64,000 bases of DNA, taken from positions 310,001-374,000 of the forward strand of contig NZ_QDKM01000004.1 in NCBI RefSeq assembly GCF_003076755.1, written 5' to 3'. Shown one piece after another: positions 24,584 through 41,424 of this stretch. Position 1 is the first letter of the stretch. Every line of letters starts with the position of its first letter. Below the pieces are notes generated by a model. That model was not told the origin of the DNA, made no database searches, and worked only from the letters and a program-made list of their open reading frames with translations. The position numbers and the translations under genes were made by a program. The DNA is from Pararhodobacter oceanensis. GTDB lineage: Bacteria; Pseudomonadota; Alphaproteobacteria; Rhodobacterales; Rhodobacteraceae.

Positions 24584-25177
24584 CTATGGTTCCAGCAGCG
24601 CTATCTGCACATCGAACAGACGCAGCCCTTCATCGACCAGCGCAAAGCCGCGTGCCCCCAAGGTCCAGCGGATCGCCACCCCCTGCACCAATGAGGTCAG
24701 CAGCATCGCGATATCCTCGGCAGCTATATCCTGACGCGCGCTGCCGCCTGCCTGTCGCTCTTGGATTGCCGCAACCAGCCGCGCCTGAAACTCGCCCAGC
24801 ACCCTGATGAAGACCGCGCGCAGCGCCGGATTATCAACCTGCAACTCGCGCGAGAACAGGATCGAGGGCATCGCCGGTGTCTGCGCGATCTGTGCCAGTT
24901 GCGCGCCGATCAACGCCCTGAGCCGCGCCTCGGGTGTCGCCGCCCCGGCTTCGGCCTGGCGCCAGGCGGCGGTGAGTTGCAGCGCGATCTCCTCGGCCAC
25001 CGCCAGCCACATCTCGCCCTTGGTCGGAAAATGCCGGAAAATCGCCGGTTGGCTCAGCCCAACCGCGCGCGCCACATCATTGGTGCTCAGCCGGTCCGGC
25101 CCGATTTCATCGGCCAGTTGCAGCACCTCGCGCACGATCTGCGCCTTGCGGGTTTTGGCGTTCAAACGGATGGACAT
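24584..25177 (-). CDS. TetR-family repressor divergent from the second RND operon
   Basis: 197 residues. The N-terminal TetR helix-turn-helix (RKAQIVREVLQLADEIGPDRLSTNDVARAVGLSQPAIFRHFPTKGEMWLAVAEE, about 10-60) is followed by an all-helical ligand domain. The start is ATG at 25177 (MSIRLNAK). A perfect GTTAG-N10-CTAAC palindrome lies just upstream (25190-25209) in the short divergent region with the RND genes. A second, 16/20 identical copy sits before the P1B ATPase operon at 41241, suggesting that this protein controls both. Confidence 0.88.
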   Translation of the reverse strand: MSIRLNAKTRKAQIVREVLQLADEIGPDRLSTNDVARAVGLSQPAIFRHFPTKGEMWLAVAEEIALQLTAAWRQAEAGAATPEARLRALIGAQLAQIAQTPAMPSILFSRELQVDNPALRAVFIRVLGEFQARLVAAIQERQAGGSARQDIAAEDIAMLLTSLVQGVAIRWTLGARGFALVDEGLRLFDVQIALLEP

Positions 25178-25189
25178 TGCGACTCTCTT

Positions 25190-25209
25190 GTTAGCAATCA
25201 CTCACTAAC
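25190..25209. promoter_or_regulatory. TetR-type operator GTTAG-N10-CTAAC, copy 1
   Basis: A perfect 5-bp inverted repeat spanning 20 bases, 12 bases upstream of the tetR start and about 115 bases upstream of the RND adaptor start. Sequence: GTTAGCAATCACTCACTAAC. Its near-copy is at 41241-41260. Confidence 0.7.
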
Positions 25210-25323
25210 ATATACTCACCCCACCCACAACCACACGCCCCGAGTCGCGCGCCGCCAAATTGGCGCCCGCCACGCCAACCGCCGCCGCTTCGCATCCACT
25301 CTCAGTAGCCAAGGGTTAACCCT

Positions 25324-26622
25324 ATGCGCCTCGCTCCACTCCTCGCCCTGCCGCCCGTCGCGCTCGCTGTGGCCTCCGCCGCATGGATGATCTCCACCGC
25401 GCCGGGTCCGGCGCAGATCGAGGGCGAGGCAGAGGCGCTGGCGGTGCGCACACTCACCGTCACGCCCGAGGATATCCGCCCAAGTGCCACGGTCTGGGGC
25501 AACCTGCGCGCGGCGCAAACCTGGGTGGCGGTGGCCGAGGTGCAGGGCGAGGTGATCTGGCGCCATGACGATCTGCAAGCGGGCCGGTTGATCCCAGCGG
25601 ATACGCAGGTGTTGCGCGTCGATCCCGCCGATTACGCACTGGCTTTGGCGCAGGCCGAGGCCGATCTCGCCGCCCTTGGTGCCGAGGCCGCGCAACTCGA
25701 GGCCGAAGCTAGCAACACCACCCGCATTCTGGCGCTCGAGCGTGAACGTCTGGCGCTCTCCGAGGCCGATCTGACCCGCACCAACACCCTGATCGCGCAG
25801 GGCACCATGCCGCAAGCGCGGGCCAATGAGGTCGAGCGCGCGACGCTTCTGGCGCGGCGCACGGTGGCCGAACTGGAGAACGCGCTGGCGCTGGTCCCCG
25901 CCCGCGAGGCCCGTATCGCTGCGCAGCGCGCCCGCACCCAAGCCGCGCTCGCCCGCGCCCGCCGCGCGCTGGAGCGCACCACATTAACCACGCCGTTCGA
26001 TCTGCGCGTTACCGAGGTCAGCGCCGAGCGCTTCCAGACCATCGCCCCCGGCCAAGTGGTGATCCGTGGCGATGCGCTCGCCAGTGTCGAGGTCGTCGCG
26101 CATCTGCCGATTGCCAGTTTTCGCCGCCTTCTCGGCAGCGCCACCGAGGGGCTGTCGCTTGAGGACATGATGCGCGACATCCCCGCCCGTCTGATTGATG
26201 TGACGCTTAGTCCGCTGGCCGATCCCTCGCAGCTTTGGGCCGCGCGGGTCAGCCGGATCGAGGGCGCCGTTGACGCTCGTGCCCGCAGCGTGCCGGTGGT
26301 GGTCACTGTCGAGGCGCCCTATGCCGGTGCCAACCCGCCGCAGCGCCTGCCCTTGGTGCCGAATATGCAGGTCAACCTGACCTTTGCCGGTGCGCCAATC
26401 GCCGATGCCTTCGCCTTGCCCGAAGCCGCGTTGCACGCCGGAATGCTGCGCATCGTTGGGCCGGATAACCGGCTGGAACTGCGCCCCGTCACGCCCGAGT
26501 TCACCCAGAACGGGCGCGTTGTGCTGACCCAAGGTCTGGTGGCGGGCGAGCGTGTGGTCTTGGATGATATCGCGCTTGCGATCCCCGGTTTGCCCCTGCA
26601 CCCCGTTGAGGTCATGGAATGA
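25324..26622 (+). CDS. RND efflux periplasmic adaptor (membrane fusion protein), second system
   Basis: 432 residues. Short signal/anchor (APLLALPPVALAVASAAWMI), lipoyl half-domain (AEVQGEVIWRHDDLQAGRLI), a long alpha-hairpin rich in Ala/Glu/Arg (about 100-205), and a beta-barrel. The family blocks are weaker than in the first adaptor, so it belongs to a more divergent HlyD/MexA subgroup. Its stop overlaps the start of the pump gene by four bases (ATGA). It is divergent from tetR, with the GTTAG palindrome between. Confidence 0.9.
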   Translation: MRLAPLLALPPVALAVASAAWMISTAPGPAQIEGEAEALAVRTLTVTPEDIRPSATVWGNLRAAQTWVAVAEVQGEVIWRHDDLQAGRLIPADTQVLRVDPADYALALAQAEADLAALGAEAAQLEAEASNTTRILALERERLALSEADLTRTNTLIAQGTMPQARANEVERATLLARRTVAELENALALVPAREARIAAQRARTQAALARARRALERTTLTTPFDLRVTEVSAERFQTIAPGQVVIRGDALASVEVVAHLPIASFRRLLGSATEGLSLEDMMRDIPARLIDVTLSPLADPSQLWAARVSRIEGAVDARARSVPVVVTVEAPYAGANPPQRLPLVPNMQVNLTFAGAPIADAFALPEAALHAGMLRIVGPDNRLELRPVTPEFTQNGRVVLTQGLVAGERVVLDDIALAIPGLPLHPVEVME

Positions 26623-29600
26623 TCCGCTGGTTCACCGGCCATCCGACGGCGGGCAATCTTCTGCTACTGGTGATCCTCGCGGCGGGGCTTTTTGCCGTGC
26701 CGAACCTGCTGCGCGAGACTTTCCCCGATTTTCGCTCAGTCGAGGCCGAAATCACCGTGCCCTACCGCGGCGCCGCAGCCGAGGATGTGGAGCGGGCGAT
26801 CTGCGCGCCGCTTTGGGACGGGGTGCAGGGTGTCGAGGGGCTGCAAACCCTGAGTTGCAGCGCACACTCCGGCCGCGCCCGCGCCGTAGCCACCATGGGT
26901 TCGGGCAATGATCCGCTGCGGTTTATCAGCGCCCTGCGCAGCGAAGTCGCGGCGATTGACAGTTTCCCTGCCCGCGCCGATCCGGCGATTGTGCGCGAGA
27001 TGCACCGCTCCGATCCGATCGCCTCGGTGGCGATTTCGGGTGATTTGCCGCTCTCGGAACTGGACCTTTACGCCGAGAGCCTTGCCGACCGGATCACCGC
27101 GCTTTCGGGTGTCGCCACGGCCACGCGCAGCGGGCTTGGCACCCGCACGCTCAGCATCAGCGCCGACCGTGTGGTGCTCGAGGGCTACGGGCTGACCCCT
27201 GCCAGTTTGGCCAATGCGATTGCGGCGCAGAATATCGACCTGCCCGCCGGCACATTGGAAGGCGCGGGCCGCGATCTGACCCTGCGCGTCACCGCCGCCC
27301 GCGACAGCGCTGCGGGGCTGGCGGCGATCCCTGTGCTGGTGCTGCCCAGCGGCGCCACGCTGAGTCTGGGCGAGATTGCCACGATCACCGAGCGTTTCGA
27401 GCCGCCCCATGACCGCGCGAGCATCGACGGGGCGCCCGCGATCCTCATTGATGTCGCCAAGGCGCTGGATGCCGACGCGCTGCGGGTGCTCGACGCGGTC
27501 ACCGCATTAGTCGCGCAGGAAACCGCCCGTCTGCCACCCGCCCTGCGCATTGAAGTGGTACAGGACGTGACCTCGATCATCCGCGACCGCCTGCTGATGC
27601 TGGTGCAAAACGGCGTCATCGGGCTGGTGCTGGTCGTCGTCGTGATGTCCCTCTTCTTCCGCCCCGGTTTCGCGATCTGGGCGGCGATGGGCCTGCCCGC
27701 GGCCTTTGCCGGTGCGTTCATCTGGATGGCGGTGACGGGGCTCAGCCTGAACATGATGACGCTGGTCGCGCTGTTGATGGCGATCGGCATTGTGATGGAC
27801 GATAGCATCGTCATCGCCGAATCCATCGCCGTGCATACCAAGGGTTCCACCAGTGTCGCCAATGTCGCGGCGGGCGTGGCGGCGGTGGCGCCCGGCGTCA
27901 TCTCGTCCTTTCTGACCACGCTGGCGGTGTTCCTGCCGCTGGCCTTTCTCGCCGGTGAACTCGGCGCGGTCTTGCAGGTGCTGCCGGTGGTCCTGCTGGC
28001 CGCGCTTGCTGCCTCCTTGATCGAGGCCTTCCTGATCCTGCCGCATCATCTCTCGGGCAGCAAAACACAGGACAATCCATCACGCTTTCGCCGCGCCTTC
28101 GACGCCGGTTTCAACGCCCTGCGCGATCAAGGCGTGGGGCGTCTGGCCGATGCCGCGATCCGCTTTCGCTGGCTGGTCTCGGGGCTGGCCATCGCCGCGC
28201 TGATCGTCACCGTCGGCGCCTTGGGCGGCGGGGTGGTCAAGCGCGAGGCCCTGCCCGAGATCGACGGCGATGTGCTTGAGGCGCGTATCTTGATGCCCGC
28301 CGGCACCCCCCTCGCCCGCACCATGGAGGCGGTGGCGCAGGTCGAGGCGGCGGTTGACCGGGTAAATACGCAAATGTCCCCCGACCCTGCCGCGGCGCCG
28401 CTGGTGATCCGCCGCATCACCCGCATGGGGCGCAACCTGTCGGCGGGGGAAAGCGGCGCCCATGTCGCCACCGTCGCGGTCGATCTGCAAAGCGCCGGCA
28501 CACGGAGCCAAACGCTTGATCAGATCATCACCCTTTGGCGCGCCGAGATCGGACCGCTGGCCGGCGCCTCCTCGCTGATCCTCACCGAACCGGGCATCGG
28601 CCCGCAGGGCGTCGCAGTGGAGTTGCGCCTGAGCCATCCCGACCTCGCCACCCTGCAAGACGCCGGTCGCGCCACGCTGGCCGAACTCTCCAGCTATGCC
28701 GGTGTGCGCAACGCGATCCTTGATCTGCGCCCCGGCGCGCCGGAACTGCGACTGACGCTTTCACCGGGGGCCGAGGCTCTGGGCCTCACCGCTGCCGATA
28801 TCGCCAGCCAATTGCGCGCCGCCTTCCTTGGCACGCAGCTTGAGGAAATCCGGCGCGGCGACAGGGCGTGGGATCTCGAGGTGCGCCTCTCCGACGCCGA
28901 CCGTGCCAACCGCGCCGGTCTTGAGGCCTTTGAAATCGCGCTCCCCGCAGGTGGTAGTGTGCCGCTGTCCAGCGTCGCCAGCCTCACCGAGGCGCGCGGT
29001 TGGGGCAGTATCACCCAGCGCAACGGGCGCCGCACCCTCACCGTTTCGGCGGATGTCGACGGGCAGATCGGCAATGCCGATGCGATCACCGCCCGTTTGG
29101 CCAGCGGCTACCTGCCCGCGCTCGCTGCCGAGACCCCGGGGCTGAGTTTCGAGATCGGCGGACAGGCCGCCAATGCCGCCGAGACCGTCGCCTCGATCCT
29201 GCGCGGGTTTCTGATCGGGCTGGTCGGTATCTATGCCGTGCTCAGCTTCCAGTTCCGCAGCTATATCGAGCCGGTGATCGTGATGATGACCATCCCGCTG
29301 GCCTTCCTCGGGGTGGTCTGGGGGCATGTGCTGATGGGCTATAATATCTCGATGCCCTCGCTGGTCGGCGCGGCATCATTGGCGGGGATCGTGGTCAATA
29401 ACGCGATCCTCTTGGTCGGCGTGATCAATGCCCGCCGCGCCGAGGGCCGCACAGCTGCCGAGGCTGCGGGCGATGCGGTGCGGGCGCGGTTCCGGCCGAT
29501 CTTTGTCTCGGTCTCGACCACGATTTTCGGCATGGCGCCCTTGCTGTTCGAGACCTCGACGCAGGCGCAAACGCTGAAACCTTTGGTGATCGCGGTGGTC

Positions 29601-29714
29601 TTCGGGCTGCTGGCGGCGACGGTGCTGATCCTTGCCGTGCTGCCCGCCTTCTATGCCGTTCTGGATGATTTGCGCCCCGCGACAGGGCGCAAATCAGGGC
29701 AAACTCTCAAGTGA
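26619..29714 (+). CDS. RND efflux pump, inner-membrane subunit, second system
   Basis: 1031 residues with 12 predicted membrane helices. Helix 4 carries IVMDDSIVIAES (the Asp pair). In helix 10, where AcrB-type pumps have VKNAILLV with the proton-relay Lys, this protein has VVNNAILLVG, with Asn instead. That substitution is found in a recognised side-branch of RND proteins, so this pump may use a modified relay or different substrates. Coupled to the adaptor gene by ATGA overlap. It converges with the DUF805 gene with no intervening base. Confidence 0.93.
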   Translation: MIRWFTGHPTAGNLLLLVILAAGLFAVPNLLRETFPDFRSVEAEITVPYRGAAAEDVERAICAPLWDGVQGVEGLQTLSCSAHSGRARAVATMGSGNDPLRFISALRSEVAAIDSFPARADPAIVREMHRSDPIASVAISGDLPLSELDLYAESLADRITALSGVATATRSGLGTRTLSISADRVVLEGYGLTPASLANAIAAQNIDLPAGTLEGAGRDLTLRVTAARDSAAGLAAIPVLVLPSGATLSLGEIATITERFEPPHDRASIDGAPAILIDVAKALDADALRVLDAVTALVAQETARLPPALRIEVVQDVTSIIRDRLLMLVQNGVIGLVLVVVVMSLFFRPGFAIWAAMGLPAAFAGAFIWMAVTGLSLNMMTLVALLMAIGIVMDDSIVIAESIAVHTKGSTSVANVAAGVAAVAPGVISSFLTTLAVFLPLAFLAGELGAVLQVLPVVLLAALAASLIEAFLILPHHLSGSKTQDNPSRFRRAFDAGFNALRDQGVGRLADAAIRFRWLVSGLAIAALIVTVGALGGGVVKREALPEIDGDVLEARILMPAGTPLARTMEAVAQVEAAVDRVNTQMSPDPAAAPLVIRRITRMGRNLSAGESGAHVATVAVDLQSAGTRSQTLDQIITLWRAEIGPLAGASSLILTEPGIGPQGVAVELRLSHPDLATLQDAGRATLAELSSYAGVRNAILDLRPGAPELRLTLSPGAEALGLTAADIASQLRAAFLGTQLEEIRRGDRAWDLEVRLSDADRANRAGLEAFEIALPAGGSVPLSSVASLTEARGWGSITQRNGRRTLTVSADVDGQIGNADAITARLASGYLPALAAETPGLSFEIGGQAANAAETVASILRGFLIGLVGIYAVLSFQFRSYIEPVIVMMTIPLAFLGVVWGHVLMGYNISMPSLVGAASLAGIVVNNAILLVGVINARRAEGRTAAEAAGDAVRARFRPIFVSVSTTIFGMAPLLFETSTQAQTLKPLVIAVVFGLLAATVLILAVLPAFYAVLDDLRPATGRKSGQTLK

Positions 29715-30167
29715 TCAGGTGGCCGGCACCGGCCCGAACTGGTTTGCCTCAGGCTCGGACGGGCGGGTCAGCCACCACAGGAACACCAGCCCGACCACCA
29801 GTTGCACAAGGCCAAACAGCGCCATGAACCCCATGCTGCCCATGCTCGGCATATTGGTCACCTGCCCGCCATCGACCACCGGCGCCGAGGGCATGAACAA
29901 CATGCCGATCAAGCCAAGCCCCATCGGGATGAAGATCTGCCAGCCCGGCCGTCCGGTATCTTGCAAGCGCCGGTATCCCGCCGCCGCCATCGGGCTGAGC
30001 AAGGCGAGGTAATAGATCAATACGATCCACGATCCCAGCAGTGAGGCAATGATCCCGCCGATCACCACAACCAGCACGAACCACCAATATTCCGACCGGC
30101 TCGCGCGCCCGCTGAAACCGACATATTTTTGCGTCAGACAGGTTTTAACCGAAGTTTGCAGGTCCAT
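29715..30167 (-). CDS. DUF805 inner-membrane protein
   Basis: 150 residues. Opens with the family signature KYVGFSGRASRSEYWWFVL (about 15-33), followed by three more membrane segments; YRRLQDTGRPGW is the conserved DUF805 loop. Function is unknown across the family (YhaH/YhaI-like). AGGGAGAG precedes the ATG. Single gene, back-to-back with the end of the RND operon. Confidence 0.88.
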   Translation of the reverse strand: MDLQTSVKTCLTQKYVGFSGRASRSEYWWFVLVVVIGGIIASLLGSWIVLIYYLALLSPMAAAGYRRLQDTGRPGWQIFIPMGLGLIGMLFMPSAPVVDGGQVTNMPSMGSMGFMALFGLVQLVVGLVFLWWLTRPSEPEANQFGPVPAT

Positions 30168-30454
30168 AAAATTCTCTCCCTTTCAATGGTTACTCTCAAA
30201 TACGATCACGATTTGACCGCAGCATTGCCCGAATTCCTTTTGCAATCAAGTCGGCTGCGCTCAGGTTGCAGTGAGGCGCGGAGGGCGCCGAAAAACCAGC
30301 AGCAGCAAAAGCCCTCGCTATTCGGGACAATCAGCGCCAAGATTAATCTGATCCAAAACCCGCGCGGCGCCGTATGATCCTCAAGGCGTTGAGAAATGAA
30401 ACCACGTCGCGCCACCATCTAACCCGCTGGGATAGCACTCGAAAAGGACACGCC

Positions 30455-31174
30455 ATGCGCATTGGAACTCTCGCCATTCTGGTGCTGGTCGCCACCATCG
30501 CCTTTGTGATTTCGCCGCTATTTTCCAGCGGTTTCAACGGCTTTTCCGCCGATCAATTCCCGATCCCGCAGACCGACCCGCCGGTGCAACCTGCGGGTTA
30601 TGCGTTTGCGATCTGGGGGGTGATTTACCTCTGGCTGGTGATCAGCGCCGCTTACGGCGTCTGGCGCGCACCCGACGACGCAGGCTGGCAGGCGATGCGG
30701 ATCCCCTTGTTGATCAGTCTGACTATCGGCGCGTTCTGGATCGCGGCGGCAAATTCCGCGCCGGTTCTGGCGACAGTGATGATCGTGGTGATGGCGGCCA
30801 CAGCAATCGCGGCCCTGCTGCGCGCGGGGCCACAGGATGTCTGGCTGCAGGCCCGCCCCGTCGCGCTCTATGCAGGCTGGCTGACCGCCGCGACCGGCGT
30901 CGGCATTGGCGTCACGCTGGCCGGATACGGGGTGCTTTCGGCGCAGGCAGCGGCGCTCTTGTGCCTTGGCGCGGTGCTGCTGGTCGCGCTGATCGTGCAG
31001 GCCGCGCGCCCCCGCGAATGGGGGTATGCGGCGGCGATTATCTGGGCGCTGGTCGGTGTGATCGTCAGCAATCTGCCGACGATGAATCTGCCGGTGCTGG
31101 CGCTCGCCGCGCTTGGCATCGCCCTGCTCGCATGGCGCGCTGCGGTGCCGTTCGTCAAATCTGAGACTCGTTAA
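30455..31174 (+). CDS. TspO/MBR-related tryptophan-rich membrane protein
   Basis: 239 residues, seven to eight predicted membrane helices. The segment VQPAGYAFAIWGVIYLWLVISAAYGVW is the hallmark of TspO-like proteins found in many Rhodobacteraceae, longer than classical five-helix TspO. TspO proteins bind porphyrins and act in tetrapyrrole or stress signalling; for this branch the role is not established. ATG at 30455 has AAAAGGA upstream; an earlier in-frame ATG at 30374 would add a hydrophilic stretch without a ribosome site. Confidence 0.72.
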   Translation: MRIGTLAILVLVATIAFVISPLFSSGFNGFSADQFPIPQTDPPVQPAGYAFAIWGVIYLWLVISAAYGVWRAPDDAGWQAMRIPLLISLTIGAFWIAAANSAPVLATVMIVVMAATAIAALLRAGPQDVWLQARPVALYAGWLTAATGVGIGVTLAGYGVLSAQAAALLCLGAVLLVALIVQAARPREWGYAAAIIWALVGVIVSNLPTMNLPVLALAALGIALLAWRAAVPFVKSETR

Positions 31175-31263
31175 GCCCTGCCCTGATCAAGGAAAATAGC
31201 GCCGCGGCTGCACCCCCTCGCCGCGCCCCGCAGGTCAGCCTGCGCTTTAGTGCGCCTCACCCG

Positions 31264-32481
31264 CTACGCCGCCATACAGACGATCAGCGGGCGCAACCGG
31301 TGCAGCACCTCCACCGTGCCCGCATGCGCCTCGAGAACCTTATCGAGATCCTTATAGACCTCGGGCGCCTCATCCGCGCCGCCACCGCGCAGGATGATCC
31401 CCTGCCGCGCAAGCTCCTTTTGAACAGCCGGAAAATCCACCTGACCGCCGCTCTGCACCCATTCGGTCACATTGACCACGCGCCCGTCCTTGCGGGTGGC
31501 CTGCCGCTTGACCCGTCGCCGCCGCCCCGCCGCCGCCGAGCGTGACATCACCCGCCCCGCGCCATGCACGGTCGAGTAATAGAGCCCGCGTGACTGGGCG
31601 CTGTCGACGCCTTGCAAGATCACCGAGACCCCGCCCATCGACGCACCTACAAACCCGCGCTGGCCGGGAAACGCAGGTGTCGCGCCCTTGCGCACCACCC
31701 AGCGGTTCTGGCCGCCGTGCTCTTCGTGCCAAGCGAAATTATGGTGGTTGTGCACCTCGTCCACTATCTCGCCGCCAAGGATCTCGACCACCCTGTCACA
31801 GGCCCAGTCACGCCCCGCATAGGCATAGCGACCGGCCAATTGCATACAGGCGATATAATCGCGCCCCAACGCCGAATTCACCGGCAGTGTTTTCGGCGCC
31901 GCATCCGCCGCATTGGGCTTATCGCCCGCCTGTTTCATAAAATGCGACGCAATTGCATGGCCCAATGAGCGCGAGCCGAAATGGACCCCGACCCAAATCC
32001 GCTCCTCCTCATCGGCGAACACATTGACATAATGATTGCCCGCGCCGATCGAACCCAATTGCGCCCGCGCCGTCGCTTTCAGATCGCCCGAAGCGCGCAG
32101 AAACGGCGAGGTCTGCCAAAGTGGATCGTCAAACAGCGCATCCTCGACGCGGGTCTTATTCGCCTGCCCGACGCCGAAGGCCAGTTGCGCATACATCTCA
32201 TCCGCCAAGGGCGCGAGCCGCCCGCTGACATCCGCCCGCGTCAGATTGGTCCGCACCGCTTTGTTGCCACAGCCGATATCGAAGCCGACACCCGCCGGAG
32301 CGATCCTATCGGTTTAGACCGCCACACCGCCGACCGGCATGCCGTAGCCTTGGTGATTATCTGCCATCAACAGCATCGCTTCGGCTTCGATCCGGCAGTT
32401 TTGCGCCTGCGCCAACGCGCCCTCGCTGGCCTCGCCCATAATTACGATCTCGGGCTTTGGGCTCCGGTCTTGCATCACCAT
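31264..32481 (-). pseudogene. rtcB: rtcB (RNA-splicing/repair ligase) interrupted by a single in-frame TAA
   Basis: Reading from the ATG at 32481 (AGGAAGGA upstream) there are 55 codons ending MADNHQGYGMPVGGVAV, then TAA at 32316-32314, then the same frame continues TDRIAPAGVGFDIGCGNKAVRTNL to a normal RtcB C-terminus (stop 31264). There is no frameshift: one codon breaks an otherwise intact gene of about 405 codons. Metal ligands are retained downstream: Asp/Cys of GFDIGCG, His of GAGNHY, GVHFGSR, EVHNHHNFAWHE, and STVHGAGR with the guanylylated His. RtcB joins RNA 2',3'-cyclic phosphate to 5'-OH ends. Either this is a recent pseudogene, a sequencing error, or the stop is read through. No rtcA or archease gene is adjacent. 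Confidence 0.85.
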
Positions 32482-32773
32482 TTTGGGGTCCTTCCTGCCT
32501 CCGCACAGGCAAATCGCCCCCGCGAAACCTGCGGGTCGGCGTGCCGGTGCTGTGGCGTTCATATGTATAGGCTCTGCCGGTAAGAGCCAATGCGCTGCGA
32601 GCGAACCGCGCATCGAAGGACATGCCGGTTTTTCAGCATATGAAGCTGTTTGACTGGGTTTTAGACCTTGGTGCTGGAGAAATTAAAGAACTTTGAAGTT
32701 CAAAAACCAAACAGCCTAGCGGAAAAATGCCGAGCTGCTTGAAAACCTGCGCACATACGTTAGTTAAAGCGCC

Positions 32774-33208
32774 ATGATCAGCAGACCCTCCCGCCCCGCA
32801 ACATTCCGCGCCCGTTTTCAAGCCGCGCTCTCCCGCCCTGCCCTCGGCGGCGCGGTTCTGGCGCTGGCCCTCGCCGTGCCGATAAGCGCCGCTGCGTCCA
32901 GCGTGGTGCAGGATTGGATCCCCTCGGAACTGGTTTTTCCTGACGATATCGAAGTGGTTACCGACCGCGCCATCGGCTCGAGCATACGGATGTTTGCGAT
33001 CACCACCGAGGCCGATCTCGACGCGCTTTTTGGCGACTGGATGGACAGTCTGAGCAGCACCGATTATTCGGTCAGCCTGAACACCGAAGACCGGCTCGGG
33101 CAATCCATCGAATTCTCTGGCCCGGGGATTTTCAACGCTAAAATCATCGCCGCGCCGGTCACCGATGAGGGCCGCAGCATCATCGAATTCGACGCCACGC
33201 TGAATTGA
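32774..33208 (+). CDS. Small exported protein of unknown function
   Basis: 144 residues. A long N-terminus with basic residues and a hydrophobic core (LGGAVLALALAVPISAAASS) makes a signal peptide of about 42 residues. The mature part of about 100 residues is acidic, with alternating beta-like stretches (IRMFAITTEADLDALFGDWMDSL; FNAKIIAAPVTDEGRSIIEFDATLN). No family recognised and no strong ribosome site. The 160 bases before it are AT-richer than average. It may be a lineage-specific periplasmic protein. Confidence 0.6.
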   Translation: MISRPSRPATFRARFQAALSRPALGGAVLALALAVPISAAASSVVQDWIPSELVFPDDIEVVTDRAIGSSIRMFAITTEADLDALFGDWMDSLSSTDYSVSLNTEDRLGQSIEFSGPGIFNAKIIAAPVTDEGRSIIEFDATLN

Positions 33209-33302
33209 GGCACCACGGGTTATAAAGACCCGCAGGTTTTGGTTAATCGGTTTTCGTGCTCGGGTGATTTACGCGCCGCACCAGCCGCCAATCCCGGCAA
33301 TG

Positions 33303-33554
33303 CTACCCGCTCACCATCCCCGCCACCATGGCGCCGAGGGCGACGAGATGGACCAGCATCAGCGCGTTATCCTTCCACATGGCGCCGACCGCAAACCAGC
33401 CCAAGACACCGATCAGAAACAGATAGAGGTTCCACGGCGTCCAGCCGAATCCGGTGGCGGTATAGCCCATGATCTGGATGATCGAGGCGCCCCATTTGAC
33501 CGCGAACACCATGCGGTCGAATTGCGGGCGCCTCATGGCGGCGTCAGCGGACAT
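33303..33554 (-). CDS. DUF6552-like small membrane protein
   Basis: 83 residues starting MSADAAMRRPQFDRMVFAVKWGAS. Two to three membrane helices: ASIIQIMGYTATGFG, WNLYLFLIGVLGWFAVGAMW and ALMLVHLVALGAMVAG. The layout WGASxxQIxGYxxTxxGxTPWNxYxFxxGxxGW is that of a conserved Rhodobacteraceae small membrane family of unknown function. GGGAGG lies at the right distance from the ATG at 33554. It is divergent from the LysR gene at 33789. Confidence 0.78.
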   Translation of the reverse strand: MSADAAMRRPQFDRMVFAVKWGASIIQIMGYTATGFGWTPWNLYLFLIGVLGWFAVGAMWKDNALMLVHLVALGAMVAGMVSG

Positions 33555-33788
33555 GAGCCAAGCCTCCCGCTGCAGCGCCGTTGCCTTGTGCAGACAAGGA
33601 CCGGCTACCCGGATCAATTCCAACTACCGACGCTATACGCGCGGCGCCGGTGCCGCTGCCGGCGATATGCACCATGTTATCTACAGTCATTACTCACTCC
33701 ATCTCGTCATTGGCATGAATATAATCTTATGGACGCGCCGCATCGCCCGAGAATTGATCTTTCATGACAGTAGAAATACTATCTCCAA

Positions 33789-34667
33789 ATGACCCAGCTT
33801 CCTCCCCTTAACGGGCTGCGCGCATTTGATGTGGCGGGCCGGTTCCTGAACTTTCGCGCCGCGGCCGATGAGTTGCGCGTGACGCAGGGCGCCATTGCCC
33901 AGCAGGTGCGCCAGCTTGAGGCGCATTTGGGAGTGCCCTTGTTTGAGCGACTGCCGAAGGGTCTGGCCTTCACCGCCGCGGGGCGAAGCTATCACGCGGG
34001 CATCGCCAGTGCGTTTGACGCGCTGCGCAATGCCACCGAGCAGCTCAGGCCGGAACCCGGCAAGGTGCTGATCAGCGTCACTCCGACCTTCGCGGCGAAA
34101 TGGTTGATCCCCAATCTGCCCGATTTCTCGACCCATCACCCCGATATCGACCTGCGCATTCTGGCGACCGAGAAACTCTCGAGCTTTCACAGCGACGGGA
34201 TCGACCTTGCGGTCCGACAGGGCGAGCCGCCCTTTGGCGCCGCGCTCGACGCTCATCTGCTGTTTGATCAAGAGGTTATCGCGGTGTCAACGCCCGATCT
34301 GGTCGCGGAGCAAGGCGTGCCGGTCACTCCGCAGGCCCTCTCGGCCCTGCCCAAACTGCACGACGCGCATGATCTCTGGCCGGAGTTCCTGAGGTCGCTG
34401 AACATCGCAGATACCGCGGGCCACGGGCTGCGCTTGAGCCAGACCTCATTGGCTGTCGATGCCGCGCTTTCCGGTCAGGGCGCGGCGCTGGTGAGCCGGT
34501 TTCTGGTGGCTGCGGAGCTTGCAAGCGGGCGTTTACTGCAGATCACACCGCAAATCTTGCGCGGCAGGCAGGATTTCTACCTGCTTGCCACGCGCAAACC
34601 CAAGCAATCACCGGCGATTGCCAAGGTCATATCATGGTTTCTCGCGCGCGCCGCTGACCGGTCGTAG
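33789..34667 (+). CDS. LysR-family regulator, GcvA-like
   Basis: 292 residues. Opens with LPPLNGLRAFDVAGRFLNFRAAADELRVTQGAIAQQVRQLEAHLGVPLFERLPKGLAFT, a typical GcvA-type DNA-binding domain, and ends with a LysR effector domain. It is divergent from the DUF6552-like gene and convergent with the SDR gene, 32 bases from its stop. The leader lacks a clear Shine-Dalgarno site. Effector and targets unknown. Confidence 0.88.
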   Translation: MTQLPPLNGLRAFDVAGRFLNFRAAADELRVTQGAIAQQVRQLEAHLGVPLFERLPKGLAFTAAGRSYHAGIASAFDALRNATEQLRPEPGKVLISVTPTFAAKWLIPNLPDFSTHHPDIDLRILATEKLSSFHSDGIDLAVRQGEPPFGAALDAHLLFDQEVIAVSTPDLVAEQGVPVTPQALSALPKLHDAHDLWPEFLRSLNIADTAGHGLRLSQTSLAVDAALSGQGAALVSRFLVAAELASGRLLQITPQILRGRQDFYLLATRKPKQSPAIAKVISWFLARAADRS

Positions 34668-34699
34668 CGCCGAAACCGCATTGCGCGCATCGCAGCCGT

Positions 34700-35650
34700 T
34701 CAAAGCGCCCATTGATACCCCGTCGCCGCCTCGGAGACCTCCCACAGCCGCGCCATCACCGGCTTGTCATAGGCATGGGGCCGCAATTCCCCCTTGCCGA
34801 CGGGGCCGCCGAACCCCAGCCAGCCCGTGGGACCGTAAAGCGCACGAGGCTCCAGCCCCTCTTCGGTGGCGCACATCACCTCGGGCCAAGAGCCCTTTTC
34901 GGCAGATTGCACCAAGGGCGACAGCGACATCAGCCCAAACATGATCCGCGTGGTCAGATTGCCGCTGGTGGTGATCAGCGAGGTGCGTGACGAACCGGGA
35001 TGACAGACATAGACGCCGACATCACTGCGACCTGCCGCGGCCAGCCGGTCCTGCAACTCATAGGCGAACATCATCTGCGCCAGTTTGCTTTGCGAGTACG
35101 TGCGGTTTTGGTGATAGTTCTGATCCCAGTTCATATCGTCGAACTGGATGGTTTTGATCCCCATATTATAGCCAAGGCTCGAGACCACCACGATCCGGCC
35201 CTTGGTCTCGGCCACGCGCTCGAATACCAGCCCGCAAAGCAGGAAATGGCCGTAGTGGTTGGTGCCCAGCATGCTTTCGAACCCGTCAACCGTCAGCACT
35301 TGTTTGGGCACCTGCGCGATGGCAGCGTTGCAGATCAGCGCGTCAATGCGCGGAACCGTGGCCAAGATCTCCGCCGCCGCCGCGCGCACAGAGGCCAGCG
35401 AGGCAAGGTCCATGCGGATATAGCTGACCTTGGCCTCGGCGCCGAATTCGGCCTTTAGCTGCGCCTGTGCCGCCTGCGATTTCGCGTCCGAGCGGTTCAG
35501 CATCACCACTTTCGCGCCTTTGCCCAGCAGCGTCCGCGCCGCCTGAAACCCCGCGCCGGCATTGGCGCCGGTGATCACATAGGTCTTGCCGCCAAGATCA
35601 CTCAGGCGGTCCGGCGTCCAGCCTTTGGGTCCAAATCTGGTATCCGACAT
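34700..35650 (-). CDS. Short-chain dehydrogenase, retinol-dehydrogenase/WWOX-like
   Basis: 316 residues, longer than classical SDRs. TGANAGAGFQAARTL (cofactor site), LNRSDAKS with Arg after the second strand favouring NADP(H), ICNAAI (in place of NNAG), catalytic VVSSLGYNM Ser, and YSQSK Tyr/Lys. This pattern matches the retinol dehydrogenase/protochlorophyllide reductase-like branch. It is divergent from an AraC-type regulator with a 21-base-period direct repeat in between, which suggests regulated expression. Substrate unknown. Confidence 0.88.
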   Translation of the reverse strand: MSDTRFGPKGWTPDRLSDLGGKTYVITGANAGAGFQAARTLLGKGAKVVMLNRSDAKSQAAQAQLKAEFGAEAKVSYIRMDLASLASVRAAAAEILATVPRIDALICNAAIAQVPKQVLTVDGFESMLGTNHYGHFLLCGLVFERVAETKGRIVVVSSLGYNMGIKTIQFDDMNWDQNYHQNRTYSQSKLAQMMFAYELQDRLAAAGRSDVGVYVCHPGSSRTSLITTSGNLTTRIMFGLMSLSPLVQSAEKGSWPEVMCATEEGLEPRALYGPTGWLGFGGPVGKGELRPHAYDKPVMARLWEVSEAATGYQWAL

Positions 35651-35739
35651 TATCTTGCTCCTTTGAGCGCGGGCAAAGGGCCGCGCAACTTATATCCTGA
35701 AGCTGTAAATACCTCTCACAGGCGCGCAGAAACAGCCAA

Positions 35740-35771
35740 GATTGTCGCAAAAACTTGCCTGATTGTCTCAA
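35740..35771. promoter_or_regulatory. AraC-type direct repeat, GATTGTC-N-CAA twice with a 21-base period
   Basis: GATTGTCGCAA at 35740-35750 and GATTGTCTCAA at 35761-35771 differ at one base and start exactly 21 bases apart, two helical turns. AraC-family proteins bind such tandem half-sites. The site is between the SDR gene and the AraC-type gene, 42 bases before the latter's start. Confidence 0.6.
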
Positions 35772-35812
35772 GCCGGTTGCAACGCGCGGGGTTCCTCGGT
35801 TAGATCGCCGCC

Positions 35813-36712
35813 ATGAGCAAACAGGCCATCAAAGATATTATCGCCGCAAACGCAGCCCGTGAGGGGCTGACCGAGAGCGGCATCAAAGGCGTGCAACTGT
35901 TCCGCGCGACGCAGGCCATTCCCTGCGTTCCGGTGGTCTATGATCCCTGCATCGTGGCCATCGTCAGCGGCGAGAAAGAAGCCATTTTTGACGGGCAAAG
36001 ATATGTCTACGACGATAGCAAATACCTCTGCTGTCCGATGTCGATGCCGGTCATGGCCGGAACCCCTGCCGCCGCGCCGGATACCCCGCTTTACGGCGTG
36101 CTCATCGCGCTTGACCCGCGGGTGATGTCGGCATTGGCGATGGATATGCAGATGGAGGCTTCTGCCAGCCCCGATCCGATGGTCAAAACCGATCCGCCTG
36201 CGCAGGGGATCAGGCTGGCGCGCTGGGATGATGGTTTCACCAATGCCCTGCTGCGGCTGTTGCAGCTTGCAAAGAACCGGGCGGATATGGCGATCCTTGG
36301 CGAGGCGCGGCTGCGAGAGCTATATTACGCGATCCTCAAGGGCGAGGCGGGCGGGTTTGCGCGGCAAGCCTTTGGCGCCGGAAATGCCATTGCGCGATCG
36401 ATTGCGGATCTGTCGTCAAATCTGGCGGCGCCGGTCTCGATTGACGAGATGGCGGGCCGCGCCGGGATGAGCCGCGCGGTGTTCCACCGCAAATTCAAGC
36501 AGGTGACCACGATGGCGCCGATCCAATTCGTCAAATCCATGCGGCTCAACAACGCCGCGATGAAGATCGCCGGCGGTTTGGCGGTCACCGAGGCCGCGAT
36601 GGACGTCGGATATCTGAGCGCCTCGCAATTCAGCCGCGAGTTCAAGCGCCACTATGGGCAGTCACCACGGCAATGGGCCGAGGCGCAGCAACTACCGCTG
36701 GGCGTGGCGTGA
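35813..36712 (+). CDS. AraC-family transcriptional regulator with AraC_N-type sensor domain
   Basis: 299 residues. The N-terminal cupin-like AraC_N domain (about 10-180; TESGIKGVQLFRATQAIPCVPVVYDPCIVAIVSGEKEAIF) is followed by the AraC HTH pair (about 195-290): MAGRAGMSRAVFHRKFKQVTTMAPIQFVKSMRL and VGYLSASQFSREFKRHYGQSPRQW. Divergent from the SDR/retinol-dehydrogenase-like gene, its likely target, with the direct repeat between. Confidence 0.9.
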   Translation: MSKQAIKDIIAANAAREGLTESGIKGVQLFRATQAIPCVPVVYDPCIVAIVSGEKEAIFDGQRYVYDDSKYLCCPMSMPVMAGTPAAAPDTPLYGVLIALDPRVMSALAMDMQMEASASPDPMVKTDPPAQGIRLARWDDGFTNALLRLLQLAKNRADMAILGEARLRELYYAILKGEAGGFARQAFGAGNAIARSIADLSSNLAAPVSIDEMAGRAGMSRAVFHRKFKQVTTMAPIQFVKSMRLNNAAMKIAGGLAVTEAAMDVGYLSASQFSREFKRHYGQSPRQWAEAQQLPLGVA

Positions 36713-36851
36713 GTATGTCGCCGCTGAGGGTTTCCGGTGTGGCAGGCATGGCTCGGATATCCCGACCGTGGCCGGCAAATTTGATGGTTAAGCACCTATG
36801 GCCTGCAAGCACCCGCATTGTTGCGCAGACCACCAGCGGAGGGCATGGAGG

Positions 36852-38720
36852 GTGACGCGCCGACCGGTCACATATATCTGCGCGGCCATCCTCTTGGCCG
36901 TCATTGGTGCCCCTGCACAGGCAGCCACTCCCGAGGACGGGCGGGCGATTTTCGGCCTTGTCGGGCTGGAACTGGCCTTTCTCGAGGCCCTAGCCCTGAT
37001 CGCGCTGGCCTGTGTATTCGTGCCGTTGTCGCGCGCTGTGGGGCTGGGCACGGTGATCGGCTATCTCGTCGCGGGTGTGGTCGCGGGGGCCGGCCTGTCG
37101 ATTTCCTTCACCGGCGACCCTGAGGAACTGCTGCATTTCGCCGAGTTCGGGGTGGTGCTGTTTCTCTTTGTGATCGGGCTGGAGTTCCGCCCCGCACGGC
37201 TTTGGGCGATGCGCGGCACAATCTTCGGGCGGGGGCTTGCACAGGTGATGACCTGCGCGGCCCTGCTAACGTCGGCGGCATTGCTGTTCGGGCTTGAGTG
37301 GCGTGTCGCGGTGATCATCGGCCTCGGTTTGGCGCTCTCCTCTACGGCGCTGGTCATGCGCGGCATCGACGAGAGCGGCGAGCGCAATTCCACCTTTGGA
37401 CAGACCGCCATCGCGGTTTTGTTGTTCGAGGATCTGGCAATTGTGCCCTTTCTTTTGCTGGTCACATTGCTCGCCCCCTCTGGCGAGGATGCGACGCTGG
37501 CTGGCAACCTGTGGGCCACCGCTATCGGCATCGGCGCCATCGCGCTGCTGATCCTGATCGGGCGTTATGCGCTTGATCCGGTCTTTCGCATCATCGCCCG
37601 CACGCGCACCCCGGAACTGATGACCGCCGCCGCGCTTGGCGTGGTGGTCTTTGCCGCGCTGATCATGGCTTCGGCGGGGTTATCCTATGCGATGGGCGCC
37701 TTTATCGCCGGTGTGATGCTCGCAGAATCCTCTTATCGGCACGAGATGGAAGCCGATATCGAGCCCTTCCGCGGCTTGTTCATGGGGCTATTCTTTATGG
37801 CGGTCGGCCTCTCGCTGGACCTCTCGGCGGTGGCCCAGAACTGGCAGGTGATCTTGCTGGCGGTGCCACTTACCATCAGCCTCAAGGGGCTTGGGGCTTA
37901 CGGCGTGAACCGCGCCTTTGGAACCCCTCATCCAACCGCGCTGCGCATCGCCCTGACCATGGGCCAGCATGGCGAATTCGGCTTTGTCCTGTTTTCGGCG
38001 GCGACTTCGGCCCTGCTTTTGCCCGGAGACCTCGCTTCGGTGGTGGTGGCGATTGTCACCCTGTCGATGGCGCTCTCGTCGCAATCCGACCGCGTCTATC
38101 GTTTTGTCTCCCGCAAAACGGCGCCTGAGACCATCGACGAGGATTTCACCGATGCCGCCGGATCGGTGCTGATCATCGGTTTTGGACGGGTCGGGCAATT
38201 GGTAGCGCAGCCGCTCATCGCCGAGGGGGTGCCGGTGACATTGCTCGACCACGACACCGACCGCATCCGCAAAGCGCACCGGTTTATCGAGCGGGTGTAT
38301 TTCGGTGACGGGCGGCGGCCCGAGGTGCTGGCCGCGGCAGGCGCGGGATCAGCCAAGGTGATTGTGGTGGCGACGGGCAAGCCGGAGATCACGCTCCAGA
38401 TCGTCGCCACCATCCAGCGCAAGTTTCCCGATGCCGCTTTGCTGGTGCGCGCACACGACCGGATACATGCGGTTCGTCTGGCCAGCGAAGGCGTGCCCGC
38501 AGAGGCGATCATCCGCGAAACCCAACTCTCGGCTCTGGCGCTGAGCGGGCGGGCGCTGCACGCATTGGGCTATCCCGAAGACGAGGCCGAAGAGCTCATC
38601 GCCCAGTTGCGCAAGCTCGATGCGGCACGGTTGAACGAGCAGATCATCGCGGCGAGCAATGCGGAAACGCGCGATGCCGTGATCACCGCTATCGCGCCTG
38701 AGCAGATACGGCGGAGCTAG
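36852..38720 (+). CDS. Kef-type cation:proton antiporter with C-terminal RCK (TrkA-N) domain
   Basis: 622 residues. A cleavable-looking signal helix (AAILLAVIGAPAQA) precedes about 12 CPA2 antiporter helices (VIGYLVAGVVAGAGLSISF; LGLALSSTALVMRGIDE; MTAAALGVVVFAALIMASAGLSYAMGAFIAGVMLAES). A TrkA-N nucleotide-binding domain starts near residue 450 (GSVLIIGFGRVGQLVAQPLIAEGVPVTLLDHD). KefB/KefC proteins are glutathione-gated K+ efflux systems against electrophiles; no KefF/KefG ancillary gene is nearby, so gating is uncertain. Start taken as GTG 36852 with GGAGGG eight bases upstream; ATG 36798 is possible. Confidence 0.88.
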   Translation: MTRRPVTYICAAILLAVIGAPAQAATPEDGRAIFGLVGLELAFLEALALIALACVFVPLSRAVGLGTVIGYLVAGVVAGAGLSISFTGDPEELLHFAEFGVVLFLFVIGLEFRPARLWAMRGTIFGRGLAQVMTCAALLTSAALLFGLEWRVAVIIGLGLALSSTALVMRGIDESGERNSTFGQTAIAVLLFEDLAIVPFLLLVTLLAPSGEDATLAGNLWATAIGIGAIALLILIGRYALDPVFRIIARTRTPELMTAAALGVVVFAALIMASAGLSYAMGAFIAGVMLAESSYRHEMEADIEPFRGLFMGLFFMAVGLSLDLSAVAQNWQVILLAVPLTISLKGLGAYGVNRAFGTPHPTALRIALTMGQHGEFGFVLFSAATSALLLPGDLASVVVAIVTLSMALSSQSDRVYRFVSRKTAPETIDEDFTDAAGSVLIIGFGRVGQLVAQPLIAEGVPVTLLDHDTDRIRKAHRFIERVYFGDGRRPEVLAAAGAGSAKVIVVATGKPEITLQIVATIQRKFPDAALLVRAHDRIHAVRLASEGVPAEAIIRETQLSALALSGRALHALGYPEDEAEELIAQLRKLDAARLNEQIIAASNAETRDAVITAIAPEQIRRS

Positions 38721-38954
38721 CAAAGGGGGGCGGGATTGCCCCGCGAGCGTGGTCAGGCTGCAAAGGGTTCGACCAGCACCGCCGAGAGCTTTTCGATGGG
38801 TGTCGCGCCCGCAATACTCATGGCAAAGCGGACCGTCCATCTCCGCATCGTCGCAACGGTTTCTTTGGCGGTATATCAGCCGCTATGGCGCAGCGATCAT
38901 CGCGGACCGGCCACCTATCGACGTAGCAGCTCTGACACCTGTAACCGCCCTTCC

Positions 38955-40844
38955 CTACCGATCCACCCCTTTGAGCAGCCGCAGGCCATTGAGCACCACC
39001 AGCACCGTCCCGCCTTCGTGGCCGATCACCGCCAGCGGCAAGGGCAGATCGAAAAACAACCCGCCGGTGACCAACACGCCCATGGCGCCGATAGCGAAAG
39101 TCAGGTTCTGGCGGATGATCTTGGCGGTGCGGCGCGCCATCATATGGGCCTCGGCCAATCGCTCCATATCCTCGGACAAGAGCGCGACATCGGCGGCCTG
39201 CAGGGCCACATCCGATCCCGCCGCGCCCATCGCGATCCCGACATCGGCCCGCGCCAAGGCAGCGGCATCATTCACCCCGTCGCCGACAAAGGCCACCCGC
39301 CCCTTGGCGGCAAGCTCGCCGATCAGCCGCAGCTTGTCCTCGGCCAGCAAATCGGCGTGGATATCGCCAGCCTCAAACCCCAGTTCCGCCCCGATCCGCA
39401 TCGCCACCAAGCGGCGGTCGCCGGTCAACATCAGGATTTTGCTCACGCCACTGTCGCGCAGCATGGCCAGCGCCGGAGCCGAACTCGCACGCGCCTGATC
39501 CGCGATACTCACCGCGCCAAGAAGCTGCGCGTCCTGCCCGAAATAGATGACGCTCTGCGTGTCCTCGACCATCGCCGCGAGGGCCGGATGCTCAATCGTC
39601 GCGCCCATCCGCGCCGCGATCCGCGGGTTTCCGGCCCAAAGGGTGCGGCCCTCAAAGGCGCCGGTGATCCCCTCGCTCGGCCAAGCCACCACATCCTCCA
39701 CCGCCACCGGCGCAATCCCGTGATGCTTGGCTTCCGCGCGGATCGCGGCGCCGCTGTGATGCTCGGACTCCGCCTCGAGCCCGGCCAGCAGCGCGAGGAA
39801 CTCCCGCGCGTCGATCTCGAGGGCGACGGTCTCGCTGACCGAGGCTTTGCCGGTGGTCAATGTGCCGGTCTTGTCAAAGGCGAATGTATCGACCGCGGCC
39901 AGTGTTTCCAGCGCCGCCCCGCCTTTGAACAACACGCCGCGCCGCGCTGCCGCGGATAGCGCCGAGAGGATCGCGGCAGGCACCGAGATCACAATCGCGC
40001 AGGGGCTGGCCGCAACCAGCAAGACCGCCGCGCGGTAGAGCGCATCATGCCAGTCGCGCCCGAGAAAGAGGAAAGTCGCAAAGGCAAGAATGGCACCGAG
40101 GAGCACCGCAACCGTATACCTCTGGCCGAACCATTCGCTGAAACGTTCCGAGGGGGCTTTGGCCGCCTGCGCCTCGGTGACCAACGTGATCATCCGCGCG
40201 ACGGTGCTATCGGCGACGCTTTTGGTGACCCTTGCCTCCAGCACCCCGTCGAGGTTCACCGTTGCCTCAAAGACCTGCGCGCCCTGTTGTTTGCTGACCG
40301 GCATGGATTCGCCGGTGATATTGGCCTCATCCAGCGCGCCATGCCCCGCGATGACCTCGGCATCGGTGGGCACACGCGCACCGGGGCGCAAGACGATGAT
40401 ATCACCGACGGTCAGCTCTGCGACCGGAACCTCATGGACATGCCCGTCTTCGGCTTTGCGCAAGGCGGTTTCGGGGCGCAGCGCCATCAGTGCTTCGACG
40501 GCGCGGCGGGCGCGGCCCATGGCGCGCTCTTCCAGCGTTGTCGAGATGCTGAACAGGGTCAGCAGCACCGCGCCTTCGAGCGGCGCACCCACCGCCGCCG
40601 CCGCCATTGCCGCCACCACCATCAGCAGGTCGATATCCAGAACCCGCTCTCGCCACAGAACGGTGACGGCCCGCCAAGCCGCGGGCAGCCCGCCGGCCAG
40701 ATAGACCAGCGTCAATCCGGTGAGTGAGGCCACATCCGCCGCGCTACCTTGCAGTGGCCAGAGGCCCAGCCCCGCCAGAACCAGCCCGAGGCCGGTTGCA
40801 ATTGTCAGCACCAGCGCGCCGTCTATGGGGGATGCGGTTTTCAT
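38955..40844 (-). CDS. P1B-4-type transition-metal efflux ATPase (Co/Zn/Fe class)
   Basis: 629 residues with no N-terminal metal-binding domain. Catalytic blocks: ITGES (A domain), SPC in the metal-path helix, DKTGT (phosphorylated Asp), TGDRR, and GDGVNDAAAL. The C-terminal helix carries HEGGT. SPC together with HEGGT and a lacking N-terminal domain defines P1B-4 ATPases such as CoaT, CtpD, CzcP and PfeT, which export Co(II), Zn(II) or Fe(II). Odd point: the nucleotide-domain SEHP motif reads SEHHSGAAI, so the Pro is His here. Coupled to the upstream small membrane gene by ATGA overlap. A TetR-type palindrome lies before that gene. Confidence 0.93.
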   Translation of the reverse strand: MKTASPIDGALVLTIATGLGLVLAGLGLWPLQGSAADVASLTGLTLVYLAGGLPAAWRAVTVLWRERVLDIDLLMVVAAMAAAAVGAPLEGAVLLTLFSISTTLEERAMGRARRAVEALMALRPETALRKAEDGHVHEVPVAELTVGDIIVLRPGARVPTDAEVIAGHGALDEANITGESMPVSKQQGAQVFEATVNLDGVLEARVTKSVADSTVARMITLVTEAQAAKAPSERFSEWFGQRYTVAVLLGAILAFATFLFLGRDWHDALYRAAVLLVAASPCAIVISVPAAILSALSAAARRGVLFKGGAALETLAAVDTFAFDKTGTLTTGKASVSETVALEIDAREFLALLAGLEAESEHHSGAAIRAEAKHHGIAPVAVEDVVAWPSEGITGAFEGRTLWAGNPRIAARMGATIEHPALAAMVEDTQSVIYFGQDAQLLGAVSIADQARASSAPALAMLRDSGVSKILMLTGDRRLVAMRIGAELGFEAGDIHADLLAEDKLRLIGELAAKGRVAFVGDGVNDAAALARADVGIAMGAAGSDVALQAADVALLSEDMERLAEAHMMARRTAKIIRQNLTFAIGAMGVLVTGGLFFDLPLPLAVIGHEGGTVLVVLNGLRLLKGVDR

Positions 40845-41224
40845 GTCTGCCGTCTGCGCACAGCCGCGCGGGCCACCAATGCGATGCCCAGCCAGATCGC
40901 GCAGCGCAGGGTCATGGCGAAGACGGTGCGCATCTCATATGCCCCGCCGCGCAGGACGACATAGAGGAACCCCGCAAAGACCAGCAATGTCGCCAGACAG
41001 ATCGCCAGTGACAGCGGATAGGCCCAAGGCTTTGCCCGCCAGAGGCCGAGCCCCGCTGCGATATAGGCCACGCCCGCCAAGGTGTTGAACCACAAGACGA
41101 AGCCGACCACCGCCCCCATGTCGAGAGCGCCCAGCAATGTGGTGCCGCCCGACAGCAGGGTCAGCCCGCCAAAGCCGATCGCGATGCCGCCCGTGATACG
41201 CAGGGCCAAATCTGATCTATCCAT
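40841..41224 (-). CDS. Four-helix membrane protein co-transcribed with the metal ATPase
   Basis: 127 residues, four predicted transmembrane helices (about 9-27, 37-58, 68-90, 100-120) and an Arg-rich end. No metal-binding motif and no family I recognise with confidence. It is first in a two-gene unit and overlaps the ATPase start by four bases. The GTTAGT-N8-ACTAAC palindrome is 17 bases upstream of its ATG. A helper role in metal efflux or stress is inference from position. Confidence 0.72.
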   Translation of the reverse strand: MDRSDLALRITGGIAIGFGGLTLLSGGTTLLGALDMGAVVGFVLWFNTLAGVAYIAAGLGLWRAKPWAYPLSLAICLATLLVFAGFLYVVLRGGAYEMRTVFAMTLRCAIWLGIALVARAAVRRRQT

Positions 41225-41240
41225 CCACAGCGCCCCATCG

Positions 41241-41260
41241 GTTAGTGATCAATAACTAAC
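41241..41260. promoter_or_regulatory. TetR-type operator GTTAG-N10-CTAAC, copy 2
   Basis: GTTAGTGATCAATAACTAAC is a perfect 6-bp inverted repeat (GTTAGT/ACTAAC), 17 bases from the start of the ATPase operon. It matches the tetR/RND site at 25190-25209 at 16 of 20 positions. Confidence 0.7.
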
Positions 41261-41424
41261 ATCTTATCGAGCGCCCCGCAACATTTGTCGGAGTGGTGAA
41301 GACGCGGCGGAAGTTATCCGCCGCGTAGACCCCGTGAGGTTTATAGGGTGACAGCCGCGGAGCAATGAAACCGGATCAGCGGCAGGTGATCTCCGACCGC
41401 GCTACGATGACCTGCGCCAGCCCG

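Follow-up and report, generated by a model that had tools for sequence, protein, structure and literature searches.

Predicted TetR operators before an RND efflux locus and SMP-P1B-4 ATPase operons of Pararhodobacter oceanensis

Do the RND efflux genes and the P1B-4 ATPase operon of this locus answer to a common repressor? A sequence-only reading of the window, by which we mean the whole stretch of 64,000 nucleotides analysed here (GC 62.8%; from a genome of 4.08 Mb in 32 contigs, 99.9% complete), had proposed that one TetR protein controls both through the palindrome GTTAG-N10-CTAAC. As set out below, comparison with the rest of the genome and with relatives supports a joint regulon well, but one with two TetR paralogues and three predicted operators.

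Three predicted operator sites and two TetR paralogues

Both occurrences of the palindrome, at 25190-25209 and 41241-41260 (neither assigned to a strand), were confirmed, and they agree at 16 of 20 bases. The former (GTTAGCAATCACTCACTAAC) lies between tetR and the RND genes, the latter (GTTAGTGATCAATAACTAAC) before the genes of a small membrane protein (SMP) and the ATPase. Their description as perfect inverted repeats is right for the 5-base arms, but taken at full length the sites are self-symmetric at 12/20 (25190) and 16/20 (41241) positions. Similarly, a position just upstream of start codons holds for the tetR ATG (12 bases from 25190) and the SMP ATG (16 bases from 41241), but not for the adaptor ATG, which is 114 bases from 25190. 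The window contains these two copies only, with a maximum of 0 in any of 100 dinucleotide shuffles.

The tetR gene beside the first site (24584-25177, minus strand; start chosen to fit homologues) encodes 197 amino acids. Divergent from it are the genes of an RND periplasmic adaptor (25324-26622, plus strand), which matches HlyD_3 and, at 91.1 bits, falls just below the curated RND_mfp cut-off of 94.9, and an RND permease (26619-29714, plus strand; ACR_tran, E 5.8e-145); adaptor and ACR_tran permease together mark these as RND efflux genes. A second RND permease, at 18582-21719, lies about 5 kb from the first and has the higher ACR_tran score (901 versus 485 bits).

The second site heads an operon on the minus strand, with a hydrophobic SMP of 127 amino acids (40841-41224), whose membrane nature is read from its sequence, and the P1B-4 ATPase (38955-40844), for which the best solved match is 7qbz (E 1.2e-106). 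Convergent with the ATPase gene is a gene for a KefB-like cation/proton antiporter (36798-38720, plus strand; Na_H_Exchanger and TrkA_N), which has no operator.

Across the whole genome, GTTAG-N10-CTAAC occurs at three places, the third (GTTAGTGATCTATAACTAAC) at 8631-8650 of contig C17, 10 bases before a second tetR (C17:8661-9275). The reversed control pattern occurs at eight, so the bare motif is not over-represented genome-wide; what is special is the location of its three places, not their number. The genome scan that had been called for gave two matches immediately ahead of tetR paralogues and a third at the head of the SMP-ATPase operon. The pattern GTTAGTNANNNATNACTAAC (14 fixed bases, up to two mismatches) returned the same three places, against one forward and one reverse control match. 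Frequent occurrence at unrelated places, which had been named as evidence against a shared repressor, was seen genome-wide neither with the exact pattern nor with up to two mismatches.

On C17 the order is operator-tetR-SMP-P1B-4 ATPase, and 41241 heads a copy of this type of operon that lacks tetR. As written on the plus strands, the C17 operator and 41241 agree at 19 of 20 bases, and relative to their genes they are turned round. The encoded SMPs are 74% and the ATPases 84% identical. Both ATPases contain the strings SPC and HEGGT; SPC in M4 and HEGxT in M6 define P1B-4 ATPases in the excerpted text of PMC8880997. At E 0.001 neither SMP matched any family of Pfam or NCBIfam; among solved structures no credible match was found (best E 0.54). 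DNA identity between window and C17 is ~80% over the kefB and ATPase-SMP stretches and 74% over tetR and its operator. The KefB homologue of C17 (L004 13810-15642; 87% over 611 amino acids) lies beyond the ATPase gene, reads towards it and has no operator; kefB was not found near ATPases in the other loci searched. An IS66 transposase gene on the same contig (L004 832-2592) is in keeping with mobility.

The proposal of one TetR therefore has to be replaced by two paralogues, 74% identical, with three operators; the C17 tetR itself lies within an SMP-ATPase operon. The window protein has a TetR_N helix-turn-helix scoring above the cut-off and an all-helical ligand domain, as TetR family repressors do, and its AlphaFold model (pLDDT 92) has the TetR fold. 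SlmA was the closest solved sequence in a PDB sequence search and stood first among tied rows in the comparison of the model. These two proteins are the only members of their family in the genome (no further match exceeds 26% identity), and their recognition segments, GLSQPAIFRHF and GLTQPAIFRHF, differ by one Ser/Thr.

Operator matrix and the tetR-SMP module in relatives

A matrix was trained on the tetR operators of 43 relatives (L013-L055), none from this genome; the training sites had a median score of 35.7 and a lowest of 24.9. Scores were 34.2 for 41241, 34.3 for the C17 operator and 21.1 for 25190, while the best place in the window overlapping neither of its two sites reached -6.4. The chance per position is ~4e-12 at 63% GC (2e-10 at 40%) for the score of 41241 and ~3e-9 at 63% GC for that of 25190. 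The window tetR's own operator, 25190, is thus the weakest of the three, and the paralogues may have drifted apart.

A promoter register accompanies the operator. All 43 relatives carry TTG 21 bases before it; the window tetR has TTGTGG at this distance (25225-25230, minus strand), and TTGCGG stands in the same register before SMP (41276-41281, minus strand) and on C17. The TTG is probably part of a -35 element, which would place the operator over the -10 region.

The 43 relatives come from a scan of species genomes that gave 49 loci; of the other six, three belong to distant relatives, two are fragmentary and one is an unrelated match. In all 43 the operator precedes a TetR 69-76% identical to that of the window, and the adaptor, where in reach, is divergent. 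SMP adjoins tetR in 35 of the 43. A cytochrome b561 gene, which the window lacks, was found in 35 of the 43; in the two loci read in detail it separates the operator from the adaptor gene. In a family survey the strict motif occurred in 22 of 394 genomes (393 genera) and the reversed control in three. Among the 23 survey places, 21 adjoin a TetR of the same family (42-75% identical), one is 41241 itself and one (L098) is unrelated. Within the window's genus, the motif with at most one mismatch is present in 3 of 18 genomes, so the module is accessory there.

A wider set of 65 longer loci includes window and C17. Duplicates were not removed from it (L051 and L180 seem to come from one genome), and neither this set nor that of 43 contains L059, which is fragmentary, L060, which is cut, or L061, which is unrelated. 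Of these 65 loci, 61, among them the 43 used for training, have a site scoring above 12 no more than ~90 bases from tetR; none was found at L056, L057, L058 and L176. In L057 and L058, two distant relatives, a weaker site precedes SMP and not tetR.

SMP stands beside this tetR in 50 of the 65 loci, and the exporter within 9 kb varies: RND in 44, a MacB-type ABC transporter in nine, ABC plus P1B-4 in one and P1B-4 alone in one, with no exporter within that distance in ten, some of them cut by contig ends. (Pfam confirmed the MacB domains in L164; the other ABC loci were assigned by similarity to it.) Since SMP is part of the TetR/pump module in relatives, the pairing of a TetR-linked pump with an SMP-ATPase operon in the window is not arbitrary. 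Plasmid copies of tetR-SMP-ATPase were also sought, and the sole plasmid record with an SMP, from Thioclava, is arranged like the RND loci. A more distant TetR class (~51%) with the same operator type heads adaptor-permease-ABC-SMP in L167-L171, and a HemN-type gene lies beside this class in L091 (by Pfam) and in L097 and L100 (by eye).

Predicted operators at P1B-4 ATPases of other genomes

We compared ~1.5 kb of flanking DNA of 38 P1B-4 ATPases from 37 genomes (cut-offs E 1e-200, 1e-150, 1e-150 and 1e-245). The operator precedes three of them, those of the window, C17 and an Oceaniglobus genome (G183). The G183 ATPase, 78% identical, has the site GTTAGTGACCTATAACTTCC, which has a damaged arm with two mismatches and scores 17.6, the next best place in the locus reaching -13.7; its chance per position is ~1e-8 at 63% GC and 4e-7 at 40%. 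Its promoter lacks TTG at -21. With two mismatches allowed, the whole G183 genome yielded four places, namely tetR/RND, the ATPase and two others scoring 2.7 and 6.1, while controls at this laxity gave one to two. The tetR-SMP/RND operator of G183 lies ~360 kb from the ATPase on the same contig, so that a genome for which the search found just one TetR of this family has operators at both RND and ATPase genes.

In trees of TetR and SMP, window, C17 and G183 form one clade (99/98 and 98/93), and histidine 89 is absent from these three SMPs and kept by the other 39 of 42 aligned. The ATPase tree joins the window and C17 copies as sisters, has G183 and G152 as their nearest neighbours (90/84) and places ATPases of their own genus elsewhere, which suggests that the ATPase was gained horizontally. 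A further combination occurs in G398, where one strand carries operator (score 21.8), tetR, adaptor, MacB-type permease, ABC ATPase, SMP, a VIT1-family gene and P1B-4; a gap of ~380 bases between SMP and VIT1 makes a single transcript uncertain.

The association is not a general one. A search for the TetR in 33 other ATPase genomes (E 1e-40; G369 and G399 were left out) found a member of the family in ten, and nine of these ten have no operator at the ATPase. Calculated by hand over 34 genomes, two of which have the operator and both of these among the 11 with TetR, presence of the TetR did not significantly predict an operator at the ATPase (about 0.1). We rejected a general coupling of P1B-4 ATPases to this TetR, the operator being found at 3 of 38 relatives and, among the ten TetR-carrying genomes, in G183 only.

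A probable joint regulon, its alternatives and its possible signal

We put at about 0.85 the probability that the sites are operators of one TetR family, with both paralogues expected on all three and the RND and SMP-P1B-4 genes joined in one regulon. The third site, the relatives and the damaged operator of G183 argue for it. Because the recognition segments differ by one Ser/Thr, each paralogue should bind the operators at tetR/RND (25190), SMP-P1B-4 (41241) and tetR-SMP-P1B-4 (C17) alike. TetR family proteins generally repress by covering a promoter and are released by a ligand. Since the operator would lie across the probable -10/start region, bound TetR would block transcription, and the ligand would switch on the RND pump, the SMPs and the P1B-4 ATPases together. 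As to history, an operator-tetR-SMP module, which in relatives would serve a divergent RND pump or a MacB-type ABC pump, may in this lineage have captured a P1B-4 ATPase, and the 41241 copy, having no tetR of its own, would depend on TetR made elsewhere.

Three other explanations were weighed against this one. Chance palindromes without any link deserve next to no credence: a bare 5-base-arm pattern that is outnumbered by its own reversed control would fit them, but all three places lie at this gene family, and the genome count, the matrix probability of 41241 and the operators of relatives rule them out. We consider it improbable that 41241 is a relic left after loss of tetR from an operon that is now constitutive or under another regulator. 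The ~80% DNA identity of kefB, ATPase and SMP to C17, where tetR remains, is what such a loss would leave behind; yet 41241 fits the operators of relatives better than does the window tetR's own site, and the -35 register has been kept while the surrounding sequence differs, as expected for a site in use.

The most serious contender, unlikely as we judge it, is a pair of separate circuits, in which the window TetR would act on tetR/RND only and the C17 TetR on both P1B-4 operons, with no joint regulon. Here the sites themselves pull towards separation, since 41241 resembles the C17 operator at 19 bases and 25190 at 16, and the matrix likewise sets the first two apart from 25190. The proteins point the other way: their recognition segments are nearly the same, TetRs only 42-56% identical to that of the window share the operator type elsewhere, so that specificity looks broadly conserved, and G183 has operators at both kinds of exporter with one family TetR found.

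If the joint regulon is real, an operator also before P1B-4 genes and a repressor-less copy controlled in trans would make the growth of a regulon by module capture readable. TetR repressors of pumps are commonplace. AcrR, TtgR and MtrR, which repress RND pumps, resemble the window protein in their fold, in a tetR gene divergent from adaptor-permease and in the palindromic operator between; they differ in that here the same operator type also precedes SMP and a P1B-4 ATPase, that there are two paralogous repressors and that the window TetR is nearest SlmA among solved structures. The site of SlmA, a nucleoid occlusion factor, is GTGAGTACTCAC. Unlike SlmA, the protein studied here scores 56.8 bits against a cut-off of 120 for the SlmA equivalog of NCBIfam, and its predicted operators are three and local.

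P1B-4 ATPases are known to be controlled by regulators of the MerR, ArsR or PerR types. Those described here share the SPC and HEGxT motifs with sCoaT of Sulfitobacter, as given in the excerpted text of PMC8880997, and differ from it and other P1B-4 ATPases in lying behind a predicted TetR operator. None of the open-access titles and abstract openings among the matches listed mentions a TetR regulon that includes both RND and P1B-4 pumps. The SMP, uncharacterised, gains a solid genomic setting and a role that can be tested. PacL of M. tuberculosis is likewise small and encoded beside P-type ATPases. Both are membrane proteins in such a context, PacL being described as membrane-associated and linked with metal resistance in the excerpted text of PMC13043812; the likeness drawn here is one of context. 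Over the 65 loci, RND or ABC pumps are the commoner partners of SMP.

Tentatively, and with the odds against it, we propose that tetR and SMP form a module whose portable operator recruits exporters of three unrelated kinds, RND, MacB-type ABC and P1B-4, to one signal, with SMP rather than the pump as the constant effector. The signal would be one that either an organic or a metal exporter can answer, for instance a metal-carrying ionophore or chelate. Organic export would then be linked with metal export: the organic moiety would leave through the RND or ABC pump and its metal through the P1B-4 ATPase. Such a module with interchangeable exporters would be the more interesting result and is the one most worth testing.

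A metal as inducer, which the sequence-only reading had suggested, is unsupported by the TetR proteins: in 51 sequences, H49 of the DNA-binding helix is the only conserved Cys or His. Metal sensing through Cys/His ligands is not supported; this conservation pattern makes it less likely that a soft metal is sensed directly, but leaves room for acidic sites or an organic chelate. Neighbouring genes offer leads, not tests, and hint at iron or manganese as the cargo, which would be the likeliest metals if the proposed module exists. In G398 (L164 4711-7328) the VIT1-family gene lies directly before the P1B-4 ATPase gene and downstream of operator-tetR-ABC-SMP, and G283 has a VIT1-like stretch near P1B-4 that is interrupted by a stop. 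In G106 (L133 2295-5953), where DUF2271 is present as well, genes for a PepSY-flavodoxin reductase and ApbE directly precede the P1B-4 relative; in G288 (L128 1457-4610) a PepSY-flavodoxin reductase and ApbE are encoded near it, with a di-haem peroxidase gene between. The neighbourhoods in G106 and G288 are possibly an iron-linked context.
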